From assembly GCF_004359215.1 (NCBI RefSeq), contig NW_027152082.1:1-64000 (forward strand): DNA of 64,000 nucleotides, read 5' to 3'. The DNA is from Bremia lactucae (lineage: Eukaryota; Oomycota; Peronosporomycetes; Peronosporales; Peronosporaceae). Positions 1,096-35,475 of the stretch are shown piece after piece (position 1 is the first letter of the stretch; each line of letters starts with the position of its first letter). The position numbers were made by a program, and so were the translations under genes. Below the pieces are notes generated by a model that was given only the letters and a program-made list of their open reading frames with translations, was not told where the DNA came from and ran no database searches.

Positions 1096-1121
1096 CAGAA
1101 TCGTCGGTTAATCCTCCCGAG

Positions 1122-4640: not shown

Positions 4641-5102
4641 TAAATGCACCCGAAAGTCGAAGAGTGCGTCCTGTCCAGTACCCTATTCCCTCCCAGAACC
4701 CAGCGTGGGTTCAGCAGGCACTGCTGTCAGAGCGGATCGATAAATGTGGGGCGGGACCCATCAACGCATACATGGGATGACCAGGTTCTCCGGTGTATTG
4801 CTGCAATGAAACGGTGCGCAAGCGTTCAAAACAACGAAGCAAACGGTATGTGGAAAAGGTTCAGCGGCAAACGCGAGCAGGTCTAACAAGTCGACAGCAA
4901 CTCATACACGCCCTTCGAGTAACGCTTCGCGAGGAGTGTATGATTCAGGAGGGGCGCTGACTTGAGCGTACGACGGATCGACTACGATGGGATCTCAAGC
5001 GCGTTTCTGATTGGAGCGAGACCAAACAATTACCAACCTTCACCAACACCATGGGGCGGCCTTTTCGCGCCATGCCACAGTCGGTGATAAGTTTGCAACG
5101 GA

Positions 5103-6330: not shown

Positions 6331-8302
6331 TAATGCTCCCAGGAAAACTCTTCACAGCAGCGGCCTTTGATATGCCACAATGGGCGGAGGAGGAGCTCCA
6401 AACACTTTTTGTGGAAACATGCAACCTCAACAGAGCGCAGTCGTCATAAAGTTAACCCGGGCATTTTGTACACACCGCGAGCGGCCGGTGGGGTCGGCTT
6501 GGTGTCGACAGCAGTGGCTGTAAAATCGCAACGGATGAAACACGCTCTTCTTTGGCTTACACAGAGGCGCGACAGATACGTCGGGGCGTGGAATTATGGA
6601 CGTTTCGGGAGGCTCGGGACGACGCCACTATCGCGATAACACCACTGAACCCTCTTCATCCCCGCAGTCAACGGAGCAAGATACGTGGTGAATCGTTCCG
6701 GGTTGATATTTGTGCTTGGCTTCGGCCGTCGGAAATGGAGCATGAAGCCTTACAGGATCGGCGTGGTCACCATATGCAACGGCTCATCTCGCAGACCACG
6801 TGCTGGAGGGACGGAGGCCGGCTAACGATTTGGTTAGCGGAGCTGTTACCGGCAGTTACATGGGAGATAGCGCCCGTGACCAGACGGTATTGGCCAACAT
6901 ATTCGTGGGCAGACAACCCATGGCTATGCGATGGCATAGGTCATTGGCTGATGAGCAAGAAATACGACCGCATCAGGCAGTGCGCACTGGAAGAACTTGC
7001 GATGGAGCGAACCGGTCCGACAACATACGTTTGTCACGTCCCGTTGGCTGAGGGAGCGGACAAGCACCACACGAACCGCAAACGCGGGCGCTGTGCCTTA
7101 GCAATTCATTTGGAGAGTCCTTCATTGCCTATGGGACGGACATTCGAGGTAATCCACACGGTGGCTTTACGACACCCCCCGGACATCCGGCTATCTTACA
7201 ACTGGGTGCTGGTAGAGCCTGGAGTTGTCCGAGGGGTGGAAGGTACAGCGCTGGATATTTCTTCACGGGGAATCATGCTAAAGCAGGAGGCCAACGGAAT
7301 TAATTGGACAGTCGATGACTCACATTCAGTACCTCTGGCGTTTGAGCACGATGTGGCCGTCATCAGGAGCTCGCAACGAGCTCTCGGGCTTGTCGTTGAG
7401 GCACATCATCGATCCACAGCTTTCCGTGGGATGCCCCATCCAACGTAGCGAATCGGCATGTATTAAGGCACATTAAACGCCAGCCGTATGGCAAGGCGAA
7501 GGTGGGGCTCGGCACGGCTCTGGGAGGTCTACTCCAGAAATTACAAACCTGCGCAGACAGGGGAGACTAGCACTCTGCGCCCTTTATCAAACCCCGAAGC
7601 AGCGGTGGGGTCATCAAAATGCAATCACGGAGTATCAAGTGTGGGTCTATTACCGTTTGATACTCCAACAGCTCAATTATATTCTTCCCGGGCAGGGAAC
7701 TTGACAACAGTTGCAGGAGGCTGTCCGTCTGTGGCGGTCACAAGGAGATACTGGAGCACATTTTGTGGACATGTACGGTGGCCTAGGGATGCTGGCAGGC
7801 GGTCCTGACCTTATGGTTTAAGTTTGACGTGCGGCTGGATGACGTAATCCAGTACGCGGGGTACTGCATGGCAAGAACACCGCCGCCTCTGTCTAGGACA
7901 CTATTCCAACGGCTGCAGCAGGCCTTTGGGAATACTGTGGCAGAGTATATTGTTCAGTGGAAGCGCATATGGTGGATCTTGTGTTCCGTATGTATCTCGA
8001 CTCTTTGGATACAGCGCAATCGGGTTGTTCACGAGCGGCAACAACTTTCACTTCTGGGTAGTGTCCAAGAGTTTTTCTCTAACGGACTTCGGCAATTACG
8101 AGCGTTATCGGCGAGAGAGCGCAGAACGCTACCGTCAAGGGTGCAAGGCATCCGGCTATGGCAGTGTATTGAGTTACTAGGTGAAATCATTGTGCTTTCT
8201 AGAGCATCACATCAAGTGGCGAGCCACGTACAACCACCGGGCATTTCGACACTGGCGTTGCTAATCTGGCTTAGGACATTCCAGAAGTCTTGCTCACATT
8301 AA
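6331..8302 (+). pseudogene. LINE ORF2 C-terminal region with zinc-finger remnant, copy 1
   Basis: The longest frame is 6552-7448. Further on, near 7720-7775, one frame reads VCGGHKEILEHILWTC, which resembles the RT-associated zf-RVT finger at the end of many LINE ORF2 proteins. A hydrophobic segment with IQRNRVVHERQ follows near 8010-8040. The last coding stop is at 8300-8302, then an AT-rich tail. The function of the middle part is unknown. Confidence 0.6.
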
Positions 8303-8361
8303 TACCGTGTAATAAACTTTCTGTTCCTCTCTATATATATAATAACAACCCTGACTGTGGA

Positions 8362-8823
8362 TGTAATGGGGTGTCCCGTTCCATAAATATTATTTCTCAT
8401 GAGATCAAAATTATTGTATTTTTTATTTTGACTAAATAGTTCCAAAATTACCAAATTTGGTAATATTGAAACAATAAGACATTAGATCTATTGATTGGTT
8501 GCTTTAAGTTTAAATGGATCACCGCCAATCGTTACAAGACACGATTAAACGTCGCGCAAGGAGGCGCATTGTATATTTAGTTATTAATGTATTTAAGCCA
8601 GTAGAACGAAGATCGTTTTTTAAAACTTAATGTCTTAATACAGTATTACTTTCTTCCTATTCTAAGGTCTAAATATTAATCTTTAGTAGCTAAGACCTCG
8701 GAGCTACTCAAAACCTTCCTCTGCACATCGTGTACGTAAAGTAGTCGAGGCGCCCACCTTCACTGTAATCAGTGTTGATTGACTAGTACTGTTATCAGTA
8801 CTAGCAAAGGGTGCCCCGTTACA
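8362..8823 (+). repeat. 5' LTR, family A copy 1
   Basis: It starts TGTAATGGGGTGTCCCG and ends GTGCCCCGTTACA (462 bases), with near-inverted termini typical of Ty3/gypsy LTRs. The other window copy in the same state is 27104-27565. Related LTRs lie at 15277, 41138 and 61661, and inverted at 17153. Confidence 0.88.
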
Positions 8824-8825
8824 CC

Positions 8826-8843
8826 TGGTAGCACTTTGTAGTC
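8826..8843 (+). promoter_or_regulatory. Primer binding site, family A
   Basis: Two bases after the LTR the sequence reads TGGTAGCACTT. The first eight bases are complementary to the ...TGCTACCA 3' end of eukaryotic initiator tRNA-Met, a common Ty3/gypsy primer. The match beyond eight bases is poor, so the tRNA identity is a guess. Confidence 0.55.
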
Positions 8844-8874
8844 CGTTCGACGGTCTACACACGTTCCATCCAAC

Positions 8875-9885
8875 ATGGACATGTTGGATGAAGAAAGAGG
8901 GAGCTTACAATCTTCTCAAGAAGGCCATCACGTAACGCATGTAAGATTCACTCATTTGAGTGACATTGAATGGAGAGCGATCGAACGCGTGAGTTCTATC
9001 GTAGGCGGGTCAGCCGTTGACGCCATGCTGTTCACTCCGAACACAGATGAACAATATCCGGCCATAGCCGAGTTCATGTTAACAGTTGGAACTGTTGAGA
9101 CAGCAGCATTTACATACTGCTAGCGGGCTAACGCTTCCGTTTCGACCCGAAAGAGCATAGATCGAAATCTCTGAGTTTAAGGCAGGCAAAGGCGACTTCA
9201 TTTTAAGATGGTTCGTCGAGTTAGACGACGCCATTAAGGCTCGCCGCATCAATGATGATGCGACTAAAGTGGAATTGGCATGTTCAACTGAGCCGGACGT
9301 GTCAAATCTTGGGCTTTAGGGCTCAAGCATCACGACCCACTATTTTTTAAGTCGTATGAGGTCTTTAAGACCCGACTCAGGCAAACATTTGAGCCGCGAC
9401 GTGCCAAATTCAGGGCTCGAGTCGATCTCCTGTATTTGAAGCAGGGCAAGCGTGACCTTCACGTTTATGCCCAACATACACGATACCTGGTCAGTTGTAT
9501 CGTGAGTCATCCAATTGATGAACAAACACAGACAACTGTGTTTAGTAAAGGTCTTGAAGACGGTCCTGTTAAGACTCACCTGTTCCGACTTATACTCGAG
9601 TCGCTCGACCAAGCGAGCTCAATGCGGAATGGGAGGACTTCAGCCTTAAACAAGCTTTCGTCCATTTGGGTGCATATCGATTACCGAGGCGACATGAAAA
9701 CGGAGGTCCAGAATTTTGGACCTCTCGTATGTGGAGAGCGAGAAACTTCGCTCTTCAAGCAAAGATTACAAAAATGCAATCGTTGTCAAAAGACGGGTTA
9801 CTACGCCTATGAGTGTAGTGCCCCACGCCCAGTGCCCCAGGCCCAGTGCCCAGGAACACTGAGCGAACGATCGACCCTCCGCTAG
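8875..9885 (+). pseudogene. Gag, family A copy 1
   Basis: An ATG at 8875 opens a frame that ends at 9121. The gag core continues in other frames (9436-9885) with LRQTFEPRRAKFRARVDLLY near 9370-9425 and FSKGLEDGPVKTHLFRLIL near 9541, typical of retrotransposon gag. The C-terminal zinc knuckle at 9775-9816 has Cys-x2-Cys and the final Cys, but TAC (Tyr, 9799-9801) stands where CCHC needs His. The RNA-binding finger is therefore broken. Confidence 0.75.
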
Positions 9886-10820
9886 GAACAGCGGAGGACG
9901 CAGATTCGACGCTGTTGCGAAATCGCAACGGCGAGGTGGATCAGCAAAAAAAACGGTGCGGTTCAGTAGGTGCGGAGCGCCCTACTGATCCAGCAACGTC
10001 AAAAGATTCTTTAGCCTTTTGACGAAAGTTGCTCCATGCATAAATTGGCAGCATTAAGCCGTGATGATGCCTGCCTCTCGTTCATCAGATGGCCATCTGA
10101 TATACGTCTTGGAGCGTCCACAAGCGTGTGGATGTCCTACAAGTGAGTGCGATGGACTCACTTGTGGCTCGATCGTTTGCACGACTGCACTAGACCTCAG
10201 TGTGAATACCCATCACATTTTAGAGTTAGATCCCGACGGCTGTGCACAAGCACAGGCAGCGTCGATGTTCGACCACTCGAATAAGTTGAGTGGTACGAAA
10301 CAAGGATGCTTGCTTGAAAATTAACATCCAAGAAAATTAGAAACGCCTGTCTATAAGAGACAGTGCGAAAGTCCGAGATCGACTGGAAAGTTGATCATAG
10401 AGGATCTCGCTGCGGTGGCGCAACCACAGCTAGAGGCAGTTGTAGAGGATACTCCCCATAATAAAACTTGAGGGAAAAGCTTGCCGAGAATCTGCGTTAA
10501 AAAGTCCCCAGAAACCTGTGGTCAAAGGTTCCCAAGTATTTTTGGGAATATGTTCCAAAGAGGAAACTGAGACGTTAAATGTCTTAGTAAACAACGGATC
10601 AAGTGGGGGCGCCTATACACTTGATCTTATAGCGCCTCCGAAGTTTACTTCGGAGAGAACTCAATTGCGAACGCTAGAACCGAAACGGTTCTTGCGTGAT
10701 CTGCGCAGTGGCAAAGTCAAGCAGATCTGCATAATTGTCACAGATGACAAGTACGAGGCAGGTTGCCTAACGATAAAGGCACTCGACACAAAATTGACCT
10801 GATTCCAGATTCAAAAATAC
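9886..10820 (+). pseudogene. Protease remnant and protease-RT linker, family A copy 1
   Basis: Most of the protease is missing: the FDVILG stretch seen in the inverted copy near 16310 is absent here. The frame 10518-10802 carries LTSER/LEPKRFLRDLRSGKVKQIC, which I recognise as the spacer between protease and RT in oomycete Ty3/gypsy polyproteins, not as the protease active site. Frames at 10061-10324 are other parts of the same linker. Confidence 0.55.
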
Positions 10821-11965
10821 TGTGTCATGAAGCAATGGTTATTGCCTCGTGAAAAAGTTTTAGCGATAGACAAATTCTTTGCCGAATGCTTGGCAGCGGG
10901 CCAAGTAAGGGAGTCAACCTTCATACATAGCTCTCCGACCGTCTGTGTGCGTATAAAGCAATAGGAGGGTGGCGAATTGTGCATGTGCTCAATAAATTGA
11001 ACGCTGCAACGGTACTGGCTTAAACGCCGATACCACGAAATGACGTAATGATTGATGGTATGTCAAATAGTACTGATGGATGGATTCTATCAGATCCTTA
11101 TGCGTGAAGAGGATATTCAATGCCCCTGCAACATCGAAGATGTGTAACCAATCTGTCAACAATAGTGTGGGATTTCGAACCGAGATATTTTGATGACGCC
11201 TTCGTTCATAAAAGCCACGAGTCAAAAGTCGGACGTTGAAGTGCATCGTTCCCACGTCCGAAAGGTTCGTGCATTTACGCGTGAGCATAAGTTGCATGCC
11301 AACTTCACGAAGTGTATACTCGCTGCAAGCGAAACACCACTTATTGAGTGCATGTCGGTAAATACGGTGCACGCCCTGATCCGTAAGCGATCAAGGCGAT
11401 CACCGAGTAACCTGTGCCAGTCGATTTAAAGAAGCCTCGAAGGTTTCTCGGCTTGGCGGCCCGTACTTACATAAGCACTCCCGAAGTTGTGCCGAAATGA
11501 CAGTACATCTTTCTTCTTCGTTAAAGAAATGTAAAGTTGTCATAGAGCGATGATTGTCAGCATTACTATGAGGGTGTCAAGCAAAGGTTGATGCAATTGC
11601 CTATCTTGGCGATTGCGGACCAAGGCAGATGATTTCATGCGGTCTGTGACGCAAGCTATTTTGCAATCGGCTGTGCGTTAATGTAATATGACACAGACGG
11701 TGCAAAGCGCGTCGTCTCCTATCAATCGCGTCATCTATAACCAGCTGAATGCAATTGCCCAGTGTATGACGAGGAGCGCATTGCCATGAAATATACACTG
11801 GATAAATTTAAGGTCAATCTCTTGAAAGATTGACCGATCAGTGTTTATACGAGCCATGCGGCCGTAAAAAGTTCACTCATCGCAAAAAAATGGCGAGATA
11901 GTTACCTTCCTTTCTTGAAGCATAAATTCTCCGTGGAATTAAAACCAGGACGACTAAACGTCGTC
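10821..11965 (+). pseudogene. RT-RNase H remnant, family A copy 1
   Basis: Homology to the frame at 37389-38681 can be followed piecewise: AIDKFFAECLAAG near 10865, RNase H pieces near 11620-11760, and the tether near 11930-11980. A deletion near 11110 removes the LFMPQGLSNAP block. Many stops are present. Beyond 11105 this copy is not part of the high-identity tract. Confidence 0.7.
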
Positions 11966-18668: not shown

Positions 18669-19920
18669 CTCTTAGGATTTTTTTGAAGAAGTCAGCGTCG
18701 TGGATGGCTGCGCTTATGCCGAATAGTGTAAGCACGCCCGGGGAATATGTCGGGATCTGTACAACTCTTCCTGGTCTTCATCGACCATTTTCGAGAGTAG
18801 AACCAGCAAAGTCAAGTGGGCAAGGAAACCTGTGCTACATCAATGGGCGTCGGTCCTCAGGTCAATCTGCTGACACGGGCCTACGGACTGAAAACTACCA
18901 AATGTTTATGGTTAATCCATCCAAGTATTCGGCGGAAGAAATCAAACAGCTGAGGGTAATATGTGCATTCCCAGGTCGTGACCGATCGGGTCCGCGCCTC
19001 CGAACTAGCACGGAGGTTGAGTGGAAGGTTATTCAGGGGTTGGTAGAGGGCCACATCATCAGCCGGGGTCTGCCGCATTTTCTCAAGAGAATTTTCACTG
19101 CGATGGACCGCTTGTGGTTCCAGATAACAATTCAGATGCAGGTGGAGGGCAAATTGTCCTTTCTCTCGTTGGTGCTGGGACTATCATAACCAGCCGGCAG
19201 CATACTTAAGCGTTGAAGGAAGACATATTGCTGGATGCAGAAGGATTTAAAGTGAACCTTGGGGACCTTCATATGATGCTGAGTCAAGTCAAGATTATAA
19301 GTTACAACAAGGGTCAACGGTCAATCCATTATTTTCTTTATTCGTACTGCGACGAAGAAATTTCCGGCGCACGGTAGTCCCGTTCAGACGCCGTTTGTAT
19401 CAGCTTTAAAATCCTCGTGCTCCGAGCGCGGGGTCAGTATGGAACCGGCAGATTGGATGCGACGTCACCAGACTAACGACTGTATCAGAATACGTGGTAT
19501 CGCTGTATAACGACACACGTTTTATGGACATCGGGCGGCTTACTGCATTTTTCACAGAACTTATTAGTACTGAGGTGGAGCTGGAGAACTTGGACGCGTG
19601 TACATCCAACTCTCGCACCTCCACGGTATGAAAATTTAACGGTCCAGTTGGACGGTTGCCCCGAGTTTCTTCGCGTCATCGTGCGCATCGGCTGGTATGG
19701 GATCTACATAGTTCTTAAGCATCATGAGGTGGGGCGGCGGCTGCAGTGCTTGGTTGCGAGTCTCTTGGCCACCCCATATCAAGATACGGTTATTCTGCCA
19801 AACATTTACAGTGTTCGGGGGGGTGATTGCTTTCGAAGGGGAAGTATTGGCCCCTGAGGATCTCGCTGTTCCATTTCACAGCTTCGAGGAAATGAAGGTT
19901 GTGGCAACTCAACGGATCTG
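18669..19920 (+). pseudogene. LINE ORF1-like region, copy 2
   Basis: The frame 18683-19189 (168 codons, including YSAEEIKQLRVICAFPGRD) is the longest intact piece of the ORF1 region in either copy. Further pieces at 19724-20173 include CPGCQLAYQRPGG, which could be half of a zinc knuckle. The function is inferred only from position. Confidence 0.45.
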
Positions 19921-20283
19921 CCTACAGAACCAAGCAGATAGGGTGGCAGAATCGTCGGTTAATCCACCCGAGGTGCACGTCCGCGTGACAGAAAAAAGGT
20001 CTCGCTCCTACCATTTCTACAAGTGTCCAGGATGTCAGCTCGCGTATCAGCGGCCGGGCGGCATCTCACCCGGTCCTCTCGGCAAGTCCAGATGGCGTAC
20101 CCATCTCAGCTCCGAAACCGCTCTGGGTCACGGTGTCTCGACGAGGTCGTACGAACCGTCATGGAATCATTAAAGCGATTACTACCCGTCGGGCTCCTAG
20201 GTCCATTGGTAGCTTTAAAGCAAAAGGAAGGTGCTGAAGTACGAAGCCTGCTTTAGGAAGCGGACTGCCTAAAAGAGCAGCTT

Positions 20284-20965
20284 ATGGAGATGCCCGCTGA
20301 GACCGAATTGGTATCAGTTACGGAAGATTCGATTCTACAAGTGTTGCGGTTGCGGCACGTTGCCACGCCGGCGCCAGAGAATTGTCTGGCGCTTGCGGTG
20401 GTACAAGCACTGGCCAACGACGACCTAGCACAAGCGGAGACAATTCTGAATAGGGCTGCGACGTGTGTGAAACAGGGATTTAAATACACAGGTCAACTAC
20501 AAATGACGGATCAATTCGACCATGCAGAGCACTGAAAAATCCTGGTAAATGTACGGCGACGATAGATGACAATGTCCATTAAAGAGTCTACCAAACAATT
20601 TTAATGGTATCTGGAAGAATACGCGGCCAGCGCCACGAATAGGGTAATGCTAACCGGTCACTATAACTTGAGAGGAAGCGCCATGCTTCTTATGGCTGCC
20701 AATTTTTTGCAACGAGATGTTTACGGGATCGGGCAGCCAAGCGATATACACCACCCATGGAACTGCTGCCTTTATAGGCCAAGCTCGATGACTTAGGCTA
20801 ACAAGGTGATTGAGACAGGGGACCAGCTCATCTTGACTATATCAGAATGTGTCGAGATGATAGCGACAGCCAAAAGAGCGGACCCAATAAATTTAACTCT
20901 TATACTCTGGTACACAGACCGTCACTATTCGGCCTACGTTCACTGCACGCTACCTGGTCCGCACG
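20284..20965 (+). pseudogene. OTU-like cysteine protease segment of LINE, copy 2
   Basis: PAPENCLALAVV places the candidate catalytic Cys at 20383-20385; the preceding Gly is Glu here. After stops, MLLMAANFLQRDVYGIG (about 20680-20735) matches the middle of the fold. LWYTDRHYSAYVHC (about 20905-20945) keeps the His strand intact, with His at 20923-20925. Comparing both copies shows which residues were ancestral. Confidence 0.6.
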
Positions 20966-22415
20966 ACTCTGGGGTCTTGGCTGATGATGGCCTCGCTGAG
21001 GGGTGACATCAACGAGCTGTCTACCAGACAAGCAGTCGGTGACATGACGTACACATTGCGCCAAGATATTCACTTGAATCTCCGGTGGTCCCGGTATCCC
21101 GCACTTCTCGAGTTCTTGGTGAATACGGTTGCCGCCAGCTCTGCGGACACCCAGCTCCGCTTAATGACGACAAATCTTCTTCAGACTAGCCCAGCGGAAA
21201 CTCAGCGGCTGCAACTGGCATATCGTCTTCCGGTATAGGTGATGGTACAATGGCAATCTTGGGGGGACCGAGCGGGCGGCGCTTTACGACGTTCGAGCTG
21301 GTAAAACGGAGCTCCAACAGTTGCAAGGTCCTGATCTCAGCACAAAAAATTGGCAGAGTATCCTAGCGAACGGTAGTGCAGACACCGTTCCTCCATAACT
21401 GCTACCAGAACTGCCATCGCCAGGGTATACGTATTCAAGTATCGATCCAGTTCAGGCGTTGGTGGAGCAGTCCGGGGATAGTGGTCATACCAGTCTAGTA
21501 ATTCGTCACCAGTCAACGACACTGGTCACTCAACGTGGTCAGAGAGCTAAGCAGCCGGTCTGCGTGACGGCGGCGGTCCAGCATTACAAATAGAAAGATT
21601 GAGGTCCTGGCAGGACATGTGACAAGACCTTGAGTCGGAGTGGCCGAGGACAGCACTTAGTGGGTTCCCAACGGTGGGGTCCAGTAACATTAACTAGAAC
21701 AAGGTGGCCCAAATGGAACCGCGGCGTCTTCTCACTATGGTACGACGCTTCCCTCATAAGAGTTAACCCCTGCGAGTTTTTAAGCGATGAAGGTGGTCCG
21801 CGGTATAGTTCCAAGAATGTATGTATGATCGTCTCGCCGTGTATCGAGACCGGGTGTCTGACCAGGTTACTAAAAGATGGCTTGAGGATTGGAAGGAAAG
21901 AACTTCGCGCCAAATAGCCCGGTCCTCACTGGCACCTCTCATCGATAGTTCGGATGATTGGCGGAGGTTAAAAAACAGTGGATTTGGCGGAGACGACCTT
22001 CTCCGACGGTGTGATATAACCTATGAGGGAAAAATAGCTCGTCACATCATCTGTGTGCTGCTATAAAAGGCCGAGATCTGGTCCATCACGGGTGAGGACG
22101 CCGCAAAAGACACTGGCATTGCATCCCAATTACGCTGTCATTTTGCGGGTCTGAAAGCCCTGACGGCATATCGCTCGTCATTTACGGAGATGGTCAACCA
22201 GGACGACTGGACGTTACTCGACACGTTCTTTGAACACTCTATCACCCAGATGAGTGTTCAAAGTCCACCCCAGTACTAAGGGCAGCCATATGAGAAGTCA
22301 GTACCTGGCGACAAGTCAACATATGTCTCATTGGGATCTATACGGCTTGTACCATCAGCTCAAATGGGACGGAAACTCTCAAGCAGACGGGAAAGCCGCA
22401 GGCTCTCGACAGGAG

Positions 22416-23188
22416 AAGGTTATCCGAGTAAGAACTCAGAATGTGAGGGGACTTACGAAGGAATCAAGAGCCGGTTGGTTCGCGCCTGGCGGAGAATGCC
22501 AACCGCCCAGCGGCCAATTGTTCGTTGCATACAAGAAACGCATGTGAATAGTGAGGAGTCAGCTACGCGGTTGCAAGACGACTGGAAGCGCATGTGGGGA
22601 CAACCACAGCATGTTACAGGGTCTCCCCTATCATACTGGAGTGTCGGTACAGACAAAACGGGGTGTGTGGCAATTTTACTCGACCCACGTCGAGCAGCCG
22701 AGGCACGTCCATGGCATCCTGAACTGTGGACAAACTGGGTCGTCTGGTTGAGATCGGAGATGTCCTGCTGGTGTATCTTAATGCGCCAAACCGTCATGCC
22801 GAAAGAGAAACATTTTTTCCCACCTGGTGGAATGGCCGTGGCCAAGCCGAGATACCATACTTGCGGGCGATTTTTAACTCAGTACAAAGTCCCAAACTTG
22901 ACCGCTTGGTTCGCCAGCGCACTGGACGTCCAGAAAGTGCTCAGTTTAGGCCACTTGCTAACTTTAATGGGGCTCGAAGACGCCAGTGCATTGTCGGCCC
23001 CGATGGATGACGACGATCCACCAGAACCGACGGAATTCTTACATACTGGACCAAATCGACGGCTAGCAGAATTGATCGGTTTTATGTTCCGCGTGGGTGG
23101 GCGTCTACGGTGCAATGGGTGGAGGTGACAGAGCCGGCCGTCGAGTCCGACCATCAACGGGTGTATCTTGTTCTAGGGCGGGGTGCGT
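22416..23188 (+). pseudogene. LINE AP-endonuclease domain, copy 2
   Basis: Same motifs and same frame breaks as 3868-4640, 18548 bases on. One visible difference is a T to A at 22779, changing VYLY to VYLN in the central motif. Sharing the frameshifts means this tract was copied after the element died. Confidence 0.75.
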
Positions 23189-23650
23189 TAAATGCACCCG
23201 AAAGTCGAAGAGTGCGTCCTGTCCAGTACCCTATTCCCTCCCAGAACCCAGCGTGGGTTCAGCAGGCACTGCTGTCAGAGCGGATCGATAAATGTGGGGC
23301 GGGACCCATCAACGCATACATGGGATGACCAGGTTCTCCGGTGTATTGCTGCAATGAAACGGTGCGCAAGCGTTCAAAACAACGAAGCAAACGGTATGTG
23401 GAAAAGGTTCAGCGGCAAACGCGAGCAGGTCTAACAAGTCGACAGCAACTCATACACGCCCTTCGAGTAACGCTTCGCGAGGAGTGTATGATTCAGGAGG
23501 AACGCTGACTTGAGCGTACGACGGATCGACTACGATGGGATCTCAAGCGCGTTTCTGATTGGAGCGAGACCAAACAATTACCAACCTTCACCAACACCAT
23601 GGGGCGGCCTTTTCGCGCCATGCCACAGTCGGTGATAAGTTTGCAACGGA

Positions 23651-24878
23651 GTGGCAGCAAATTTAGGCCGGAGTCACAACACTATACCGCAGTGGGGCAT
23701 GCGTCAGGCGTTCGATGAATTCGTCACGATTCCGGAGGCTGGCAAAATGTCTTCGATCGAAAATGCTTCCTTGCTTCAGCCTGTGAGCATGGACGAAGTG
23801 GCCACTGCAATATCAGGACTGAATCGGCACAAGGCGGTGGGGCCTGATGGGCTTAAGAATGATTTCTCTAACGACACTGAAGTTATATTGGCGCCGGCGA
23901 TGGTACTCCTCGAAAACGAATTACTGGATGGGAAGGATCCGCCGCCTTCGTTTCTAGAAGGCCTCATTATTCCACTTTGCAAATAGGGGGACTCGGTCGA
24001 TGCTATGGATTAGCGGCCGATATCGCTTCTTCAACTAGGTTACAAAATATTTGCAAATCTTATGGCAACACGGCTACAAGCAATTCTTCTTAAGGCAATT
24101 GGGGACAACCAGCAGGGTTTTGTGCAGGGACGACAGATGATGAAAACAATCATGATGATGCTCGCAAAAAGCAGTCTCTACTTCTCGGGCTGAACCTGAC
24201 TTGGAAGCAACACGGAGTCGAGTAATTTTGTTGCTGGATTTTCGAAAGGCATACGACACGGTGGCCCGGGATTTCCTCTTTCAAGTCCTGGAAGAGTATA
24301 GATTCGCAAGTCCTTTCCTTCACATGATGCGTAAATTGCATGAGTCTACCACAGCTAAATTTTTGGTCAATGGCTCCCTTTCTCAACCATGGGAAATCGC
24401 TACGGGGATTCAGCAGGGATGCCCTTTGGCGCCATTACTGTTCATTCTGGCGGCGGAAGTCCTGTCGTTAGCGATCATACAGGACCGCGAGCTTCAGGGG
24501 ATCGAGGTTCCCGGGACACACGGTGAGCGACTCACCTTTTCGGCGTTTGTCGATGACTCCACTGCATTTCTCCAAGAAGGGGGTAGTCTTTAACGCGTCC
24601 TCGACATCGTCGCAGCTTTCGGTCGATTATCGGGGCTCACTGTGCAGCCAAAAAAACGTCAGATTATCTTTTTGAATACGGCTGTGGCTTTGCCGGAATA
24701 TGAGGGAATACCTGTGTTGCCCCATGGCGAAACAATACGCTACCTCGGTCATCAAGTGGGTACAGGGGCACACGCCGACGAAAATTGGGCCGTCCGGATT
24801 CGGAACGTGCGCCGTCGACTCGCGACGGCTACTCGGGTGCGACCAGTGTCTCTCTCCGGGTGCTCATACTCAATGTAA
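23651..24878 (+). pseudogene. LINE reverse transcriptase, copy 2
   Basis: Essentially identical to 5103-6330, with [12 protein letters not shown] near 24229 and FVDDS near 24549 and the same stops. Only single-base differences were seen, for example two near 23504-23505 just upstream. Confidence 0.85.
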
Positions 24879-27046
24879 TAATGCTCCCAGGAAAACTCTT
24901 CACAGCAGCGGCCTTTGATATGCCACAATGGGCGGAGGAGGAGCTCCAAACATTTTTTGTGGAAACATGCAACCTCAACAGAGCGCAGTCGTCATAAAGT
25001 TAACCCGGGCATTTTGTACACACCGCGAGCGGCCGGTGGGGTCGGCTTGGTCTCGACAGCAGTGGCTGTAAAATCGCAACGGATGAAACACGCTCTTCTT
25101 TGGCTTACACAGAGGCGCGACAGATACGTCGGGGCGTGGAATTATGGACGTTTCGGGAGGCTCGGGACGACGCCACTATCGCGATAACACCACTGAACCC
25201 TCTTCATCCCCGCAGTCAACGGAGCAAGATACGTGGTGAATCGTTCCGGGTTGATATTTGTGCTTGGCTTCGGCCGTCGGAAATGGAGCATGAAGCCTTA
25301 CAGGATCGGCGTGGTCACCATATGCAACGGCTCATCTCGCAGACCACGTGCTGGAGGGACGGAGGCCGGCTAACGATTTGGTTAGCGGAGCTGTTACCGG
25401 CAGTTACATGGGAGATAGCGCCCGTGACCAGACGGTATTGGCCAACATATTCGTGGGCAGACAACCCATGGCTATGCGATGGCATAGGTCATTGGCTGAT
25501 GAGCAAGAAATACGACCGCATCAGGCAGTGCTCACTGGAAGAACTTGCGATGGAGCGAACCGGTCCGACAACATACGTTTGTCACGTCCCGTTGGCTGAG
25601 GGAGCGGACAAGCACCACACGAACCGCAAACGCGGGCGCTGTGCCTTAGCAATTCATTTGGGGAGTCCTTCATTGCCTATGGGACGGACATTCGAGGTAA
25701 TCCACACGGTGGCTTTACGACACCCCCCGGACATCCGGCTATCTTACAACTGGGTGCTGGTAGAGCCTGGAGCCTGGAGTTGTCCGAGGGGTAGAAGGTA
25801 CAGCGCTGGATATTTCTTCACGGGGAATCATGCTAAAGCAGGAGGCCAACGGAATTAATTGGACAGTCGATGACTCACATTCAGTACCTCTGGCGTTTGA
25901 GCACGATGTGGCCGTCAGTCCTGACCTTATGGTTTAAGTTTGACGTGCGGCTGGATGACGATCCAGTACGCGGGGTACTGCATGGCAAGAACACCACCGC
26001 CTCTGTCTTGGACAAATCATGCTAAAGCAGGAGGCCAACGGAATTAATTGGACAGTCGATGACTCACATCCAGTACCTCTGGCGTTTGAGCCCGATGTGG
26101 CCGTCATCAGGAGCTCGCAACGAGCTCTCGGGCTTGTCGTTGAGGCACATCATCAATCCACAGCTTTCCGTGGGATGCCCTATCCAACGTAGCGAATCGG
26201 CATGTATTAAGGCACATTAAACGCCAGCCGTATGGCAAGGCGAAGGTGGGGCTCGGCACGGCTCTGGGAGGTCTACTCCAGAAATTACAAACCTGCGCAG
26301 ACAGGGGAGACTAGCACTCTGCGGCCCTTTATCAAACCCCGAAGCAGCGGTGGGGTCATCAAAATGCAATCACGGAGTATCAAGTGTGGGTCTATTACCG
26401 TTTGATACTCCAACAGCTCAATTATATTCTTCCCGGGCAGGGAACTTGACAACAGTTGCAGGAGGCTGTCCGTCTGTGGCGGTCACAAGGAGATACTGGA
26501 GCACATTTTGTGGACATGTACGGTGGCCTAGGGATGCTGGCAGGCGGTCCTGACCTTATGGTTTAAGTTTGACGTGCGGCTGGATGACGTAATCCAGTAC
26601 GCGGGGTACTGCATGGCAAGAACACCGCCGCCTCTGTCTAGGACACTATTCCAACGGCTGCAGCAGGCCTTTGGGAATACTGTGGCAGAGTATATTGTTC
26701 AGTGGAAGCGCATATGGTGGATCTTGTGTTCCGTATGTATCTCGACTCTTTGGATACAGCGCAATCGGGTTGTTCACGAGCGGCAACAACTTCACTTCTG
26801 GGTAGTGTCCAAGAGTTTTTCTCTAACGGACTTCGGCAATTACGAGCGTTATCGGCGAGAGAGCGCAGAACGCTACCGTCAAGGGTGCAAGGCATCCGGC
26901 TATGGCAGTGTATTGAGTTACTAGGTGAAATCATTGTGCTTTCTAGAGCATCACATCAAGTGGCGAGCCACGTACAACCACCGGGCATTTCGACACTGGC
27001 GTTGCTAATCTGGCTTAGGACATTCCAGAAGTCTTGCTCACATTAA
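24879..27046 (+). pseudogene. LINE ORF2 C-terminal region, copy 2 (rearranged)
   Basis: It matches 6331-8302 except for a block of about 190 extra bases near 25918-26103 and a one-base deletion near 26791. The extra block shortens the main frame to 25100-25858. The zinc-finger remnant near 26465-26520 is unchanged. Confidence 0.6.
25829..26103 (+). repeat. Template-switch-like local duplication in LINE copy 2
   Basis: The segment beginning CATGCTAAAGCAGGAGG occurs at about 25829-25917 and again at 26015-26103. Between them sit about 97 bases (25918-26014) that resemble 26547-26645 further 3'. Copy 1 has a single segment. This is the pattern of a jump forward and back during copying. Confidence 0.75.
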
Positions 27047-27103
27047 TACCGTGTAATAAACTTTCTGTTCCTCTCTATATATAATAACAACCCTGACTGT
27101 GGA

Positions 27104-27565
27104 TGTAATGGGGTGTCCCGTTCCATAAATATTATTTCTCATGAGAACAAAATTATTGTATTTTTTATTTTGACTAAATAGTTCCAAAATTACCAAATTT
27201 GGTAATATTGAAACAATAAGACATTAGATCTATTGATTGGTTGCTTTAAGTTTAAATGGATCACCGCCAATCGTTACAAGACACGATTAAACGTCGCGCA
27301 AGGAGGCGCATTGTATATTTAGTTATTAATGTATTTAAGCCAGTAGAACGAAGATCGTTTTTTAAAACTTAATGTCTTAATACAGTATTACTTTCTTCCT
27401 ATTCTAAGGTCTAAATATTAATCTTTAGTAGCTAAGACCTCGGAGCTACTCAAAACCTTCCTCTGCACATCGTGTACGTAAAGTAGTCGAGGCGCCCACC
27501 TTCACTGTAATCAGTGTTGATTGACTAGTACTGTTATCAGTACTAGCAAAGGGTGCCCCGTTACA
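27104..27565 (+). repeat. 5' LTR, family A copy 2
   Basis: 462 bases with TGTAATGGGG and CCCCGTTACA ends. Almost identical to 8362-8823, as expected inside the high-identity tract. It is followed by the same primer-site-like TGGTAGCACTTCG at 27568. Confidence 0.88.
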
Positions 27566-27616
27566 CCTGGTAGCACTTCGTAGTCCGTTCGACGGTCTAC
27601 ACACGTTCCATCCAAC

Positions 27617-28627
27617 ATGGACATGTTGGATGAAGAAAGAGGGAGCTTACAATCTTCTCAAGAAGGCCATCACGTAACGCATGTAAGATTCACTCATTTG
27701 AGTGACATTGAATGAAGAGCGATCGAACGCGTGAGTTCTATCGTAGGCGGGTCAGCCGTTGACGCCATGCTGTTCACTCCGAACACAGATGAACAATATC
27801 CGGCCATAGCCGAGTTCATGTTAACAGTTGGAACTGTTGAGACAGCAGCATTTACATACTGCTAGCGGGCTAACGCTTCCGTTTCGACCCGAAAGAGCAT
27901 AGATCGAAATCTCTGAGTTTAAGGCAGGCAAAGGCGACTTCATTTTAAGATGGTTCGTCGAGTTAGACGACGCCATTAAGGCTCGCCGCATCAATGATGA
28001 TGCGACTAAAGTGAAATTGGCATGTTCAACTGAGCCGGACGTGTCAAATCTTGGGCTTTAGGGCTCAAGCATCACGACCCACTATTTTTTAAGTCGTATG
28101 AGGTCTTTAAGACCCGACTCAGGCAAACATTTGAGCCGCGACGTGCCAAATTCAGGGCTCGAGTCGATCTCCTGTATTTGAAGCAGGGCAAGCGTGACCT
28201 TCACGTTTATGCCCAACATACACGATACCTGGTCAGTTGTATCGTGAGTCATCCAATTGATGAACAAACACAGACAACTGTGTTTAGTAAAGGTCTTGAA
28301 GACGGTCCTGTTAAGACTCACCTGTTCCGACTTATACTCGAGTCGCTCGACCAAGCGAGCTCAATGCGGAATGGGAGGACTTCAGCCTTAAACAAGCTTT
28401 CGTCCATTTGGGTGCATATCGATTACCGAGGCGACATGAAAACGGAGGTCCAGAATTTTGGACCTCTCGTATGTGGAGAGCGAGAAACTTCGCTCTTCAA
28501 GCAAAGATTGCAAAAATGCAATCGTTGTCAAAAGACGGGTTACTACGCCTATGAGTGTAGTGCCCCACGCCCAGTGCCCCAGGCCCAGTGCCCAGGAACA
28601 CTGAGCGAACGATCGACCCTCCGCTAG
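27617..28627 (+). pseudogene. Gag, family A copy 2
   Basis: As 8875-9885, with an extra break: a tryptophan codon has become TGA near 27713, so the first frame is shorter than in copy 1. The zinc-knuckle His to Tyr change is shared, so it predates the copying of the tract. Confidence 0.75.
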
Positions 28628-30565
28628 GAACAGCGGAGGACGCAGATTCGACGCTGTTGCGAAATCGCAACGGCGAGGTGGATCAGCAAAAAAAACGGTG
28701 CGGTTCAGTAGGTGCGGAGCGCCCTACTGATCCAGCAACGTCAAAAGATTCTTTAGCCTTTTGACGAAAGTTGCTCCATGCATAAATTGGCAGCATTAAG
28801 CCGTGATGATGCCTGCCTCTCGTTCATCAGATGGCCATCTGATATACGTCTTGGAGCGTCCACAAGCGTGTGGATGTCCTACAAGTGAGTGCGATGGACT
28901 CACTTGTGGCTCGATCGTTTGCACGACTGCACTAGACCTCAGTGTGAATACCCATCACATTTTAGAGTTAGATCCCGACGGCTGTGCACAAGCACAGGCA
29001 GCGTCGATGTTCGAACCACTCGAATAAGTTGAGTGGTACGAAACAAGGATGCTTGCTTGAAAATTAACATCCAAGAAAATTAGAAACGCCTGTCTATAAG
29101 AGACAGTGCGAAAGTCCGAGATCGACTGGAAAGTTGATCATAGAGGATCTCGCTGCGGTTGCGCAACCACAGCTAGAGGCAGTTGTAGAGGATACTCCCC
29201 ATAATAAAACTTGAGGGAAAAGCTTGCCGAGAATCTGCGTTAAAAAGTCCCCAGAAACCTGTGGTCAAAGGTTCCCAAGTATCTTTGGGAATATGTTCCA
29301 AAGAGGAAACTGAGACGTTAAATGTCTTAGTAAACAACGGATCAAGTGGGGGCGCCTATACACTTGATCTTATAGCGCCTCCGAAGTTTACTTCGGAGAG
29401 AACTCAATTGCGAACGCTAGAACCGAAACGGTTCTTGCGTGATCTGCGCAGTGGCAAAGTCAAGCAGATCTGCATAATTGTCACAGATGACAAGTACGAG
29501 GCGGGTTGCCTAACGATAAAGGCACTCGACACAAAATTGACCTGATTCCAGATTCAAAAATACTGTGTCATGAAGCAATGGTTATTGCCTCGTGAAAAAG
29601 TTTTAGCGATAGACAAATTCTTTGCCGAATGCTTGGCAGCGGGCCAAGTAAGGGAGTCAACCTTCATACATAGCTCTCCGACCGTCTGTGTGCGTATAAA
29701 GCAATAGGAGGGTGGCGAATTGTGCATGTGCTCAATAAATTGAACGCTGCAACGGTACTGGCTTAAACGCCGATACCACGAAATGACGTAATGATTGATG
29801 GTATGTCAAATAGTACTGATGGATGGATTCTATCAGATCTTTATGCGTGAACAAGATATCTCGTTCATCTGTAGTGGCTAGTTATGCCACAGGGACTTAG
29901 TAATACCCTACGACATTAGACATATGTGTGTCCAATCTGTTTAGATCGGTCCGGGATTTTTTGCACCAAATTATTTTGATGACGTCTTCGTTCATAGCAG
30001 AGCCATGAACGGAAAGTCGGACGTTGAAGTACGTCCGAAATGTTCTAACACTTATGCGTAAGCATAAGATCTCAAGAAGTGTATATTCGCTGCAAGCGAA
30101 ATATCAATTCTTGGGTGCATCGTGAGTAAACACGGTGCACGCCTTGATCCGGAAATGAATAAGGTGATCATCGACTGGCCTGCGCCAGTCCATGTAAATG
30201 GACTTCCGAAATTCCATAGCTTAGCGGCGTACTTCCACAAGTACTCCCTCAAAAATGGCGAAATGATAGTACATCTTTCTTCTTTGTTGAAAAGAAAAAT
30301 TTAAAGTGGTCATGGAACGTTGATTGTCAGCGGTCCTAAGCAAAGCTCGATGCAATCGCTAATATTCGCGATTGCGGACCAAGACAGACCATTTCATGTG
30401 ATCTGTGACGCCAGCGATTTTGCAGTCGGCTGTTCGTTAATGTCATATGACACAGACGGCGCAGAGCGCGTCGTCAGTTATCAATCGCGTCAGCTTCAAC
30501 CAGCTTAATGCAACTGTCCAGTGCATGACAAGGAACGCCTTGCCATGAAATACGCACTGGCTTAG
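28628..30565 (+). pseudogene. Protease linker and RT-RNase H remnant, family A copy 2
   Basis: The linker frame 29261-29545 matches 10518-10802. After 29853 the copy keeps RT sequence that copy 1 has lost. RNase H is readable at 30320-30508 with FHVICDASDFAVGCSLM and YQSRQLQPA. It stops abruptly near 30565, where family-A antisense-ORF sequence in reverse begins. Confidence 0.7.
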
Positions 30566-31790
30566 TTAAGGGTGAGACGAATTCTTCATCGATGCCCTTT
30601 TCCAGCATCGTTGGTACACTGGTAAGCGGGCAAAGGATTCCAAAACTTTATTCCAGGCTTGGAGAGCATTTGTCCAAAACGATTAAAGCATAGGCCGCGA
30701 GGCCTGGCTTGGCAAACTGGATGTTTTCCGTGAACGGTTCAAAAAACGAACCTAGTCGGTGCACGCTATAAGTTGCACCGTTTGTCTAGAAAGGCATGGA
30801 TACCTTGCCTCTCATGGGGACTCATGCCCATGCAGTTTCAAGGGTGCAGTGCAGGTCATGCCCCTAAGGAAGCATATTCCCTTAAGGACCATCATTGGAG
30901 GAAGCTCATCTCTTACGAGATGCGTCAAAGGATTGAGAACCTTAAATCCTTTAACGAGCTCGGGAACTGCTCGTTCTCAGATGGACCCTCTGTAGGAGGA
31001 TGGGTCTTGTCGTACTGTCGCACGAGATTCGGAACGTCCATTATCAGTTGGAAACGAGTTTCCCAGGATTTTCTTTAGGAAAGTAAAGTCATTGTTTAAT
31101 TTTGTGATACTAGAATTATTTTCGACTTTTTCGATTTTTAAATTGTTTTTTATCAAATGAGAGTGGGTACCCTCGCCAACAAACGAGATAACTCGTTCGA
31201 ACCCCCTTCACCTCACGTTTGTTCGAGAGGCGTTCAACAAGAACACGCTTCTCACCACTCGAATCCGTCAATGTATGTGGAGGTGGAGGAAAAATCGGGT
31301 TCGTGTCATTTGACGAACCCGAATCAACATCGTAATTTGGACCCCCCCCCCTTTTATAATTTGAGGGAGGACATTGATCACGAAGAGTCCGTTGCCGCGA
31401 GTTGGCGGTGACGGTTGATAATGTTGCTCGTGACCAGTTGAGAATTTGTGCGCAGGTTGCGACTGAGCAACTGGCGAACGAAAGGACACATCAGTTCCTT
31501 CAAAACGAGCTGGTGACACTCCACGAAAGATCGCTTTCTTGTAGGAAAGAGTGGATCGTCTGGTTCATGAGAATCAGACTCTGTCCCGAGACTATCATGC
31601 TTTGGCACGGCACCATAAGGCTTTGGCTGATGCCTTAGACTGTTCCGGTGTAATCCGAAATCGAAAGAAGCCTCGTACTGATGGTACGGGCGGAGGCGGT
31701 CGACGTAAACGTAGAATGCGTGAGCATCCTACGTGGCAGCTCGATCGTGTGCGCATTGCCTTGGCGATTTAGAACACAAAACGGGCCGAT
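30566..31790 (-). mobile_element. Inverted 3' part of family A copy 2
   Basis: The minus strand reads integrase C-terminus (near 31790-31690), linker, chromodomain (near 31250-31110) and then 3' noncoding sequence toward 30566. Because of the inversion, the antisense ORF runs on the plus strand here. Confidence 0.75.
30584..31078 (+). pseudogene. Antisense ORF (aORF) remnant in the inverted block
   Basis: The plus strand reads DEFFIDALFQHRWY and LFQAWRAFVQND, one stop near 30676, then SIGREAWLGKLDVFRERFKK. After a frame change come RLSRKAWIPCLSWG (30773-31078 frame) and LISYEMRQRIENLKSF. These match the family-B aORF and the family-A copies at 40000 and 59600. Function unknown. Confidence 0.6.
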
Positions 31791-31794
31791 ATAC

Positions 31795-32042
31795 CTGATT
31801 AGTAATTAATTACTACTTCATTCGTCACTACATGTTTTGGTAGGAAATTAAATATATTAACATGGATTTACTATTCTTAATCATAAAGCCGTAGTCTAGC
31901 TAAGCCTTAAAGCTAAAGACCTTAGCTTCATAAGATTCTTCCGCTGTACTCTTGTGTACATGAAGTTTCGAGGCACCCACCTTCACTGTAATTATAAGGT
32001 TAACTAGTACTATTTAGTACTAGTGAAAGGTGCCCCGTTAAA
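31795..32042 (+). repeat. Truncated LTR (family-A-like)
   Basis: The 3' half of a family-A-like LTR ends GGTGCCCCGTTAAA at 32042, followed by TGGTAGCTCTTCG like the other primer sites. The 5' half is missing at the inversion breakpoint. Confidence 0.7.
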
Positions 32043-32799: not shown

Positions 32800-33660
32800 T
32801 AAGTGGGAAAGGGTCATGCTCATCACGCGTCGAAATTACCAACGACGCTACTGATGTCGATGTCGAAGCAATCGACATCGAAGAAGAGAAGATCTTATGG
32901 AAGTGCGCACAAAGCGCAATGGAAAAGACAAAACAAACGAGTCGATAGAGGAATTTCTGCTGGATCGAGAATCAGTAATCCGTTTCTTACAGGATTCCAT
33001 TGCTAACGCAGTGGATCGTCAGAAACGGAACGCAGATAAACATGGAAGAGCAAATGTTCTTTTATTTAAAATTAATGACCTAGTACCACTCTCTACGGTA
33101 AACTTACCTAAGCGTGTATGTCTATAATCTGGGTAGCAGTAAACTACTACCCAAGTTCATTGAGCCATTTCGTGTATTGCATCGCAAAGGCAATGCATAC
33201 ACAATAGAATTGCCACGTAGGATGCGTTCGCATCCTACGTTTTACGTTGGTCGGCTTCGCCCGTACCATCAGTATGCGGTTTCTTCCGAGGACGGATCTG
33301 GCCACCCCTTTTAAGAATCTTCAAAAGATTCTTGTGGTCACAAACCAGATTATCATGCTGAATCTGGAAATTCTCATGTCGAGTCTGATGATCCTCGAAA
33401 TCGCGATGAGCTGACGACAGCTCATCATGAAGAGCGTGAAGTTCCCGCTCGTGCTCTAACATTGAGTATGCACTCTTCGAACGGTTTTCCAACCGATCAA
33501 TATAGTGGCTTGCAACGTTTACTCCAACGAGTGACACTTATTGCGCTCGTGTTTAAGACCCTCCTCCAGTACATGGAGGTAGCGGTCGAGTTTGTCGATC
33601 TTCGACTCTAGATTCGCAGATTCGGATCTAATTTTTCTCCTCCACCACAACCATTGGTGG
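32800..33660 (+). pseudogene. Integrase C-terminus and linker, family B
   Basis: The GPY/F-like module is readable at 33130-33314: FIEPFRVLHRKGNAYTIEL, then YVGRLRPYHQYAVSSEDGSG. The linker after it is rich in Ser, Asp, Glu and His (about 33320-33480), as usual between the integrase module and the chromodomain. The catalytic core is deleted. Confidence 0.7.
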
Positions 33661-33929
33661 ATTCCCACGGTGGCCAACGCTTCCTTGGGGCACGTATTCT
33701 AAACTACCGTGACGTGATGGGGCAGCGAACGAGTTATCTGTTTCGCTGGCGCGGTTATCCACCTTCGCATGACAGCTGGGAGCCTCGTTCCCAGCTAGTT
33801 GTTGACGTTGAGGGCCTCGTCCGTCAGTATGACGAGACCCATCCGATGGATCAGAAGGTCCATCAGAAATCACGCGCCCCTGGCGCGTGTAAATCGATTG
33901 CAAAACGTCAATCGCATCGCGCATCTTGA
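33661..33929 (+). pseudogene. Chromodomain and pol stop, family B
   Basis: This is the best chromodomain in the window: RFLGARILNYRDV, then SYLFRWRGYPPSHDSWEPRS, then LVRQYDETHP (about 33678-33845). The frame runs to a TGA at 33927-33929. The aromatic and WEP residues of chromovirus chromodomains are kept. Upstream pol is deleted, so it cannot be expressed normally. Confidence 0.75.
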
Positions 33930-33980
33930 TAGAGATGCGAGCCCTTCCCCAGGGCGAAGAAAGGGAGTAAACATCCCCTT

Positions 33981-34703
33981 TCAATCGTTTCGTGTTGTCA
34001 GCACAACACGGACAGGATCACCCCACGTGAGGCATGGAAGTCCTGCCTCACGAGACAACCGATGCAATTTATTCTCTGCACCGGTTGAAGTTCATTTCTT
34101 AAACTTAACGAGAATTGCGTTAAGTCTTTGAAGCCAGACTTCGCGTCCAATGTCTTTAATATGCGATAAAAAGGCGCTCCAGGCTTGCATCAGCGAGGTT
34201 TTATCTCGCTTGTTGTTGCCATTATACTGTCGATGCTTAAGAAAAGCATCGAGATAAAAATCTTCCTCAGCGCGAAAGTTCTTCGCGCTGAGATCAAGGC
34301 TTGTAGCTTTATCACAGTAAATAAATGATATTTATTGTGATGAGTATTCTTTCCAGACAAGATATTTGACTAGCCGTTCGGGCAAAAGGCACGGTTTCTT
34401 CTCAGGGGCAAAGACGAGACATTTATTGTCTACGCTCCCCTGAGTGGTACCTACTGAAGCAGGGGTACAAGAACTTTTATTACAATGGTTTTCGCTATCG
34501 CCGTCACCACGCACACCAATATGTGCGGGTGACAGCACGGAAGACGGTACTGGCGATGAGGAATCATCTTTATCGTCGGAACCGAACATGCTGTTGCGAA
34601 TGCTACCAGCACGCCTACCCGAATGAGCCCCCTCATTCAAAGGCTCATAGTCAGCCGCCTGACAATGATCAGGTGACTGTTCTGTTTTCCCCGAGTCGGC
34701 CAT
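33981..34703 (-). pseudogene. Antisense ORF (aORF), family B
   Basis: A single minus-strand frame of 241 codons runs from an ATG at 34703-34701 (MADSGKTEQ) to a TGA at 33983-33981. Only two internal stops interrupt it (34334-34332 and 34094-34092). It has an acidic Ser/Asp-rich N-terminal half, then FAPEKKPCLLPER, EEDFYLDAFLKHRQY, LMQAWSAF, IGREVWLQRLNA, and RLSREAGLPCLTWGD. The same blocks occur in family A in the same order. It converges on pol, whose stop is 52 bases away. No known domain is recognised. Antisense ORFs are known in some plant Ty3/gypsy elements; homology to those is not claimed. Confidence 0.7.
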
Positions 34704-35020
34704 TTCATTCGACTCGCATTCAAAGTGGACCTCCAAAGAGGGGTCGCATTCACATGGTGAATTACCACGTGCACCCGCAATATCTAGTGTTGCGAAAGAA
34801 GATGATACAACGGCAGACGTTTCGTCTGCCGCCGAAATAATAATGCGTCGCTCGCGGCTGCTTGAGCCGCAGCCGAAGGTACCGCACTATTCGAATACCG
34901 CATGAGTTGATTCTTCATGCGATGGAATTTAAAATGATGGTTCTGACAACATCGTTTTAAAAATTAAGTGGTCACATAGCGACCACTCCATCCAATGACA
35001 GTCTTGGTGATTGTCGTTTG

Positions 35021-35475
35021 AGGAGGGGTGATGTGACGGGGTGTATCGTTAGATGAAATTAACACTTTAAGGTTATTAATTAATATATTATCTAAAAGGT
35101 AGATAATATTTGAAGAATATTACTTTACGTAGTAATATTCGGAAAGCTTATCCACTGGTAGATATAGGCCGTTATATCTACTTGCACCGCGGTCCAGTCA
35201 GCACTGGACGCGCGAAAGAGAGAGACAGATGAGAATTTATTACATATATTTTCTTAGTTTGTAATTAAGTTAGTATTAAATACATAGAAACAGAAGAACT
35301 TATTTTATTATATACAGTTAACTTTTAACCCTCTTTAATGAAAGTGTTTTAAAGGGAGTCTTCCTCTGCACGTACTAGTGTACGTGAAGTGACGTAGGGC
35401 ACCACTCGCACTAAAGCAGTGCGAAGTGGACTTTACTGAAGCTGTAACGGGCTAAAGTTGCCCTAATGTTATACA
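35021..35475 (+). repeat. Polypurine tract and 3' LTR, family B
   Basis: AGGAGGGG (35021-35028) precedes the LTR, which starts TGTGACGGGGTGTATCG at 35032. The body matches the solo LTR at 47355-47804 in reverse. The 3' end near 35475 is altered and contains a second TGTAACGGG, so its last bases are uncertain. Confidence 0.75.

Follow-up and report, generated by a model that had tools for sequence, protein, structure and literature searches.

In a 64,000-nucleotide stretch of Bremia lactucae DNA (contig NW_027152082.1, positions 1 to 64,000; hereafter the window), an open minus-strand frame at positions 33981–34703 turned out to be the middle of a broken copy of a larger antisense gene. The gene, here called aORF (antisense open reading frame), belongs to a high-copy chromodomain Ty3/gypsy retrotransposon. 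It runs on the minus strand from near the 3′ long terminal repeat (LTR) through the pol stop codon, the chromodomain and the linker that joins integrase and chromodomain. We are confident that this antisense gene is under protein-level selection. Moreover, aORF and pol very probably partition the region in which they overlap, each being constrained where the other is free to vary. The best explanation of the whole, and one that we consider likely, is a selected antisense protein of ~560 amino acids with a partitioned pol overlap, which would act as a regulator of its own element.

Selection on the antisense protein

In the window copy, the minus-strand frame 34703–33981 is 241 codons long; codons 124 and 204 are internal stops, and codon 241 is the last stop. 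The remaining five frames of the same interval contain 6, 28, 10, 8 and 10 stops, so the open frame with two internal stops reported in a first-pass annotation of this DNA is real. Dinucleotide shuffles of the interval had a mean of 11.6 stops per single frame, and three or fewer stops in the best of six frames occurred with P = 0.017. Judged from the single window copy, the openness of the frame is therefore weak evidence and only modestly unusual; it is the relatives that decide. The annotation had also counted, between the LNA and WGD motifs, about a dozen codons that differ from a second family of elements (family A, the window copy being assigned to family B) while encoding the same residue. 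This count holds: such synonymous differences affect 13 of the 22 residues shared with the family A copy at 40203–40093, CGT versus AGA for Arg included, and 12 of the 19 shared with a second family A copy at 14548–14291.

A search of the B. lactucae genome (115,934,607 bases in 220 contigs) with the window copy returned at least 130 scored matches (loose candidates: 6,647); within the match, 28 of these rows, one of them partial, were free of stops. Less broken genomic copies continue for ~260 codons beyond WGD. We aligned 27 of 30 loci (L001–L030), leaving out L022 as a near duplicate of L021, and L023 and L026 because of too many Ns. After L001 and L013 had been dropped as too diverged, 25 copies remained for estimating ω (the ratio of nonsynonymous to synonymous substitution rates, dN/dS) by the Nei–Gojobori method over all pairs and in six frames, with bootstrapping over codons; the limits given in brackets are descriptive, since they derive from pairwise sums over related copies. 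Many of the copies are dead, and the ω signal should therefore be diluted toward 1.

Over codons 1–281, where there is no overlap with pol, ω was 0.49 (0.41–0.59) for aORF and 0.97 (0.82–1.17) for the pol-phase frame over the same stretch. The aORF frame contained 0.40 stops per 100 codons (codons 2–281), and the remaining frames 1.9–11.2. Protein-level selection on the antisense frame, as the annotation had inferred, is thus borne out by an ω that is not near 1. Nor does any sense frame account better for the substitutions: the sole other frame with a low ω (0.57) is the mirror frame, which shares the third positions of aORF and has 3.5 stops per 100 codons, about nine times as many as aORF. 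The core of the family A copies (18 loci, median identity 0.60) likewise had its lowest ω (0.51) and fewest stops (1.7 per 100 codons) in the aORF frame.

Partition of the overlap between aORF and pol

The first-pass annotation had confined the gene to 241 codons between the pol stop and the LTR. The frame is present there, but these limits are too narrow, as the gene spans 34903 to 33238; the frameshifts of the window copy and the position of the C-terminal half of aORF opposite the end of pol had also not been recognized. The parts of aORF and of its element in the window are the following.

33238..34903, minus strand: aORF of the window copy from end to end, ~555 codons interrupted by stops as well as frameshifts (tblastn of P0001 residues 21–559 to L001)
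34335..34886, minus strand: 184-codon open piece 1 of aORF, covering the acidic N-terminal region rich in Ser and the FAPE..P motif with which the core begins
34095..34331, minus strand: 79-codon open piece 2 of aORF, covering the helical core
33628..34017, minus strand: aORF piece 3, CPCC end of the core and linker, opposite the chromodomain, in another frame after the frameshift
33235..33537, minus strand: aORF piece 4, coiled coil (predicted on P0001) and basic tail, opposite the integrase–chromodomain linker
33132..33269, plus strand: integrase C-terminal SH3 domain of pol (PF24626, Pfam E = 1.1e-12)
33270..33692, plus strand: pol linker between SH3 domain and chromodomain, 141 residues, with ω about 1 among copies in the part facing the coiled coil
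33693..33836, plus strand: pol chromodomain (PF00385, Pfam E = 3.6e-10)
33927..33929, plus strand: pol stop codon of the window copy
34904..35031, minus strand: stretch of 128 nucleotides from the aORF start to the 3′ LTR, delimited from the sequence, with a purine-rich tract resembling a polypurine tract at ~35020–35031 (sense)
35032..35446, plus strand: 3′ LTR, about 415 bp (three genome-wide DNA matches with limits at query 113–118 and 527)

The two domains PF24626 and PF00385 in the window copy identify the element as Ty3/gypsy with a chromodomain after the integrase; PF17921, seen in L034, and PF03732, at window position 28034, come from other copies or pieces and not from the window copy itself. 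Frame translation and comparison with relatives place the aORF start ATG at 34903–34901, on the element-internal side of the 3′ LTR and 128 nucleotides from it, and mean conservation is 0.84–0.89 across positions −180 to −21 relative to this start. Two stop codons, which end at 34332 and 34092, interrupt the aORF of the window copy, as do frameshifts close to its start and around 34014.

The two genes overlap on opposite strands over about the last 830 nucleotides of pol, where the aORF linker faces the chromodomain and the aORF coiled coil faces the linker between the SH3 domain and the chromodomain. Across the 25 copies, constraint alternates between them. In codons 282–345, ω was 0.49 (0.34–0.70) for aORF and 1.02 (0.74–1.48) for pol. 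The values are reversed in codons 346–430, opposite the chromodomain, with 1.01 (0.78–1.29) for aORF and 0.63 (0.50–0.81) for pol, and revert in codons 431–557, which encode the coiled coil, to 0.57 (0.47–0.69) and 1.02 (0.85–1.25). The directions were unchanged in a subset of 12 copies hand-picked for fewer lesions. When the pol codons opposite the coiled coil were shuffled among synonyms, 71.8 antisense stops were expected and 8 were observed (17 segments from 15 loci; excluded were 10 segments in which the pol frame was not open and 13 short ones). The phase of the overlap sets the second codon base of pol opposite the third of aORF, and hence the third base of pol opposite the second of aORF. 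Because of this phase, dual conservation at one site is hard, which fits the alternation of constraint.

Conservation of the overlap across copies and, probably, across genera

Downstream of the aORF core, the opposite strand carries a chromodomain at 33 of 34 family B loci (30 of 31 when three second fetches of the same copy are discounted) and at 14 of the 20 loci retrieved with a family A query; in total, this makes 44 of 51 distinct loci.

In successive database searches, 13, then 127, then 178 homologous proteins (the last with the core alone as query) reached E ≤ 0.001, the lists behind the last two figures comprising the best 120 each. Among the matches listed, the named ones come from Peronospora matthiolae, P. 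effusa and Hyaloperonospora arabidopsidis, and the others are unnamed ENA entries. Relatives in Peronospora and Hyaloperonospora are about 460–590 residues long, and members that look full-length about 490–590. The 90% identity clusters of P0127 and P0016, both named from P. matthiolae, hold 1335 and 524 member sequences; their sizes suggest a high copy number of near-identical antisense proteins, and thus a recent expansion.

We then asked whether proteins from other species could encode a chromodomain on the other strand, given the best codon choice at every site. As target we used the 58-residue chromodomain exactly as the window copy encodes it (self score 320); an earlier run had used a 53-residue string composed from several copies, and the exact-letter rerun is the result reported here. 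Ten proteins (two from P. effusa, two from P. matthiolae, one from H. arabidopsidis and five from ENA) were chosen by hand from 180 for spread and for the presence of the linker, with P0001 as the reference. In all ten, the best score (221–281) was found inside the linker and in the phase used by the copies of the B. lactucae genome, the other phases reaching 12–97. These scores are upper bounds, as codon choice is free, and the null was treated alike. In this matched null, obtained by random conservative change to equal identity with P0001 (16–38 of 59), the means were 93–187, and for each protein 0 of 300 replicates reached the real score. P0007 of P. matthiolae has kept only 16 of 59 antisense residues, yet its chromodomain score is 253. 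Judging from these sequences, conservation of the overlap probably extends across genera. On the simplest interpretation, a chromodomain is encoded opposite aORF in the Peronospora and Hyaloperonospora species, too, or was until recently, and the likeness of antisense linkers between species would be imposed by the chromodomain.

Architecture of the antisense protein

An alignment of 14 members has a common layout, in which a variable acidic N-terminus leads into a conserved core and, beyond a linker, a coiled coil precedes the basic tail, which ends near RKKPRTDGT. The proteins mostly start with MRG or MRC, P0004 and P0005 beginning a few residues earlier. The conserved core reads LAPEKKPW ... 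TPTGARYKLHRLSREAGLPCLSWGDPCPCC ..., and WGDPCPCC stands close to its end. In three relatives, the isoelectric point is 4.5–5.1 for the N-terminal region, 9.3–9.9 for the core and 11.0–11.6 for the tail. The core of the relative L007 (191 residues) was modeled as all-helical, with a predicted local distance difference test score (pLDDT) of 84.8 and a predicted template modeling score of 0.79; compared with PDB and BFVD, this model had no match at E ≤ 0.001. A long coiled coil is predicted at residues 429–535 of P0001, with a pLDDT of 70–93 for the block.

Two Hyaloperonospora homologs carry descriptive UniRef labels, P0118 being named 'RxLR effector candidate' and P0084 'Core-binding domain-containing'. 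Lists of downy mildew effectors may thus contain retroelement antisense proteins, which calls for caution with gene and effector catalogs.

Proposed function and origin

The aORF product would most likely be a nuclear, oligomerizing regulator, yet a regulatory role as such is a tentative proposal, to which we give somewhat less than even weight. An antisense promoter located in the 3′ LTR or next to it may drive transcription of the gene. Its protein could enter the nucleus by means of the basic tail, associate with itself through the coiled coil and bind nucleic acid or chromatin through the core. It would then be an accessory protein regulating the element in the manner of HBZ of human T-cell leukemia virus (HTLV) or GENE23 of maize Grande.

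Integrase and chromodomain are old and widespread, whereas the aORF family occurs, among the named matches listed, only in downy mildews; the coiled coil therefore probably arose by overprinting of the pol linker. A further-reaching scenario appears possible but doubtful: a retrotransposon would have overprinted its own pol linker, giving rise to an opposite-strand regulatory gene with an undescribed fold, and the alternating domains would have outlasted the divergence of downy mildews of the Bremia, Peronospora and Hyaloperonospora types, as an HBZ-like system outside retroviruses.

Several results speak against the picture of a selected, partitioned and regulatory antisense gene. In the family A segments beyond the core, the frames break and there is no clear ω contrast. 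Of the 20 loci retrieved by the family A query, six depart from the common arrangement, five having no chromodomain match within reach and one a chromodomain in the same orientation. In the 12-copy subset, the contrast in the chromodomain segment (0.92 versus 0.57, with 8% of bootstraps contrary) is not decisive, and neither is that in codons 282–345, which weakens to 0.47 versus 0.77. Two of the 17 shuffled segments are individually not unusual (P = 0.17 and 0.67). Upstream of the aORF start, there is no well conserved oomycete-type initiator-like motif. Finally, Pfam searches with aORF proteins gave only weak matches, no known fold or domain was recognized, and it is charge and architecture alone that suggest a DNA- or chromatin-binding role.

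How do other explanations compare? Instead of regulating transcription, the protein might be a structural or integration cofactor, for example one that is particle-borne and cooperates with integrase or the chromodomain. The overlap with the chromodomain end of pol and the long coiled coil would suit such a role, and a review, in its accessible part, links antisense genes of this kind with nuclear import of the pre-integration complex (PMC7264820). On the other hand, no gag, env or integrase model is among the Pfam families listed (24 of 24; best 25 of 50), and antisense expression would uncouple the protein from gag-pol dosage. On balance, we regard a cofactor as rather unlikely.

We find it improbable that the functional product is an antisense RNA, controlling the element through double-stranded RNA (dsRNA) or small interfering RNA, with the protein secondary. 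Retrotransposon antisense transcripts may act through dsRNA, as the same part of that review states (PMC7264820), but codon-level constraint and cross-genus protein conservation need a protein, with which an RNA role could coexist.

Capture of a host gene or secreted effector by the element is more improbable still. The name of P0118 points in this direction, but it is a label only; the listed homologs lack a precomputed Pfam domain, and all but P0084 and P0118 are unnamed or uncharacterized. Furthermore, the position of aORF opposite the chromodomain in most distinct loci argues against capture, and by inspection the relatives start with a polar or small-residue stretch and no evident signal peptide.

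Lastly, a sense gene or the base composition might by itself account for the open antisense frame. Codon bias can leave antisense frames of coding regions open, and copy L006 has, opposite the N-terminus, an open sense frame of 174 codons as well. Such a passive origin of aORF is hardly credible, however, and is refuted by the ω contrast. The three sense frames outside the pol overlap have ω of 0.57–0.97 and 3.5–4.1 stops per 100 codons versus 0.49 and 0.40 for aORF, pol is the neutral frame opposite the coiled coil, and synonymous pol shuffles yield many more stops than observed.

Relation to known antisense genes

Antisense genes of retrotransposons as such are already known, usually noted as open reading frames of uncertain standing. 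HBZ of HTLV-1 has an acidic N-terminus and a coiled-coil C-terminus. Like aORF, it is an antisense gene of a retroelement, and it is described as a nuclear regulator (PMC11963269; here and below, statements about publications hold for the accessible parts of their texts). We found no sequence relation between HBZ and aORF and saw no bZIP match; there is no bZIP model among the 24 Pfam families at E ≤ 1 over 14 members, a coiled coil being predicted nonetheless.

Plant aORF-3R genes (Grande gene23, RIRE2, Retand TRP28 and PvRetro13 ORF2; PMC7264820, PMC11963269) resemble the Bremia gene in being antisense frames between pol and the 3′ LTR. They occur in most copies and in several species and are suspected to encode a nuclear or regulatory protein; the Bremia aORF, too, is found in many copies and several species. 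Grande GENE23 is reported to be nuclear and antisense-transcribed (PMC7264820), and Retand elements to have TRP28 antisense proteins (PMC11963269). However, the plant genes are described as lying between pol and the LTR, whereas half of the Bremia aORF is inside pol, and its host is an oomycete. Retand is moreover described as a non-chromovirus lineage (PMC7264820, PMC11963269), whereas the Bremia element has a chromodomain, and its aORF has no TRP28 match, PF04195 (TRP28, Transposase_28) being absent from all 24 Pfam families at E ≤ 1.

The brtn gene of Boty/BcGypsy1 in Botrytis (PMC7264820, PMC8365987) is likewise an extra antisense gene in a non-plant gypsy element, but no pol overlap is mentioned for it; this comparison is by description only, not by sequence. 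Functional segregation in tat/rev of human immunodeficiency virus 1 (Fernandes 2016, as cited in PMC9119678) offers a parallel for the overlap, since there, too, the sequence encoding an ordered region of one protein is shared with a disordered linker of its partner. Unlike that case, aORF and pol belong to a retrotransposon, occupy opposite strands and form a two-way split over ~830 nucleotides. The Chronos chromodomain elements of oomycetes (PMC5348765) are similarly Ty3/gypsy with a chromodomain after the integrase, and in the accessible text of this oomycete survey the word 'antisense' occurs 0 times. Our literature search found, among the matches listed, no partitioned overlap on opposite strands in a retrotransposon. 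The protein family, the oomycete host and the partitioned overlap appear to be new.

For aORF, codon evidence from 25 natural copies, and from the core in 18 family A copies, reveals selection on the protein. The pol overlap is also a natural experiment, in which two proteins share one DNA stretch on opposite strands. In genomes that are mostly retrotransposon, the aORF family is a candidate retroelement regulator.

Surroundings of the element

Another high-copy unit adjoins the 3′ LTR, 38 of the 40 best rows starting at query 511–524 (window 35430–35443), and inspection revealed a gag-like frame downstream of the LTR, at about 36.2–36.9 kb. Upstream, window positions 599–11814 and 19359–30573 form a long direct duplication with a spacing of about 18.5–18.8 kb and pieces that are 83–100% identical; tandem duplication, repeated insertion and assembly artifact are the alternatives for its origin. 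At 30573–31830, a family A fragment in reversed orientation, with the aORF core on the plus strand and the chromodomain end on the minus strand, is fused to a plus-strand RNase H-like pol piece, and the region around it is a mosaic of broken elements. Elsewhere in the genome, an imperfect palindrome of 1.3 kb (L034:1688–2989; 74% over 1351 columns) lies next to an aORF copy and perhaps represents inverted LTRs.
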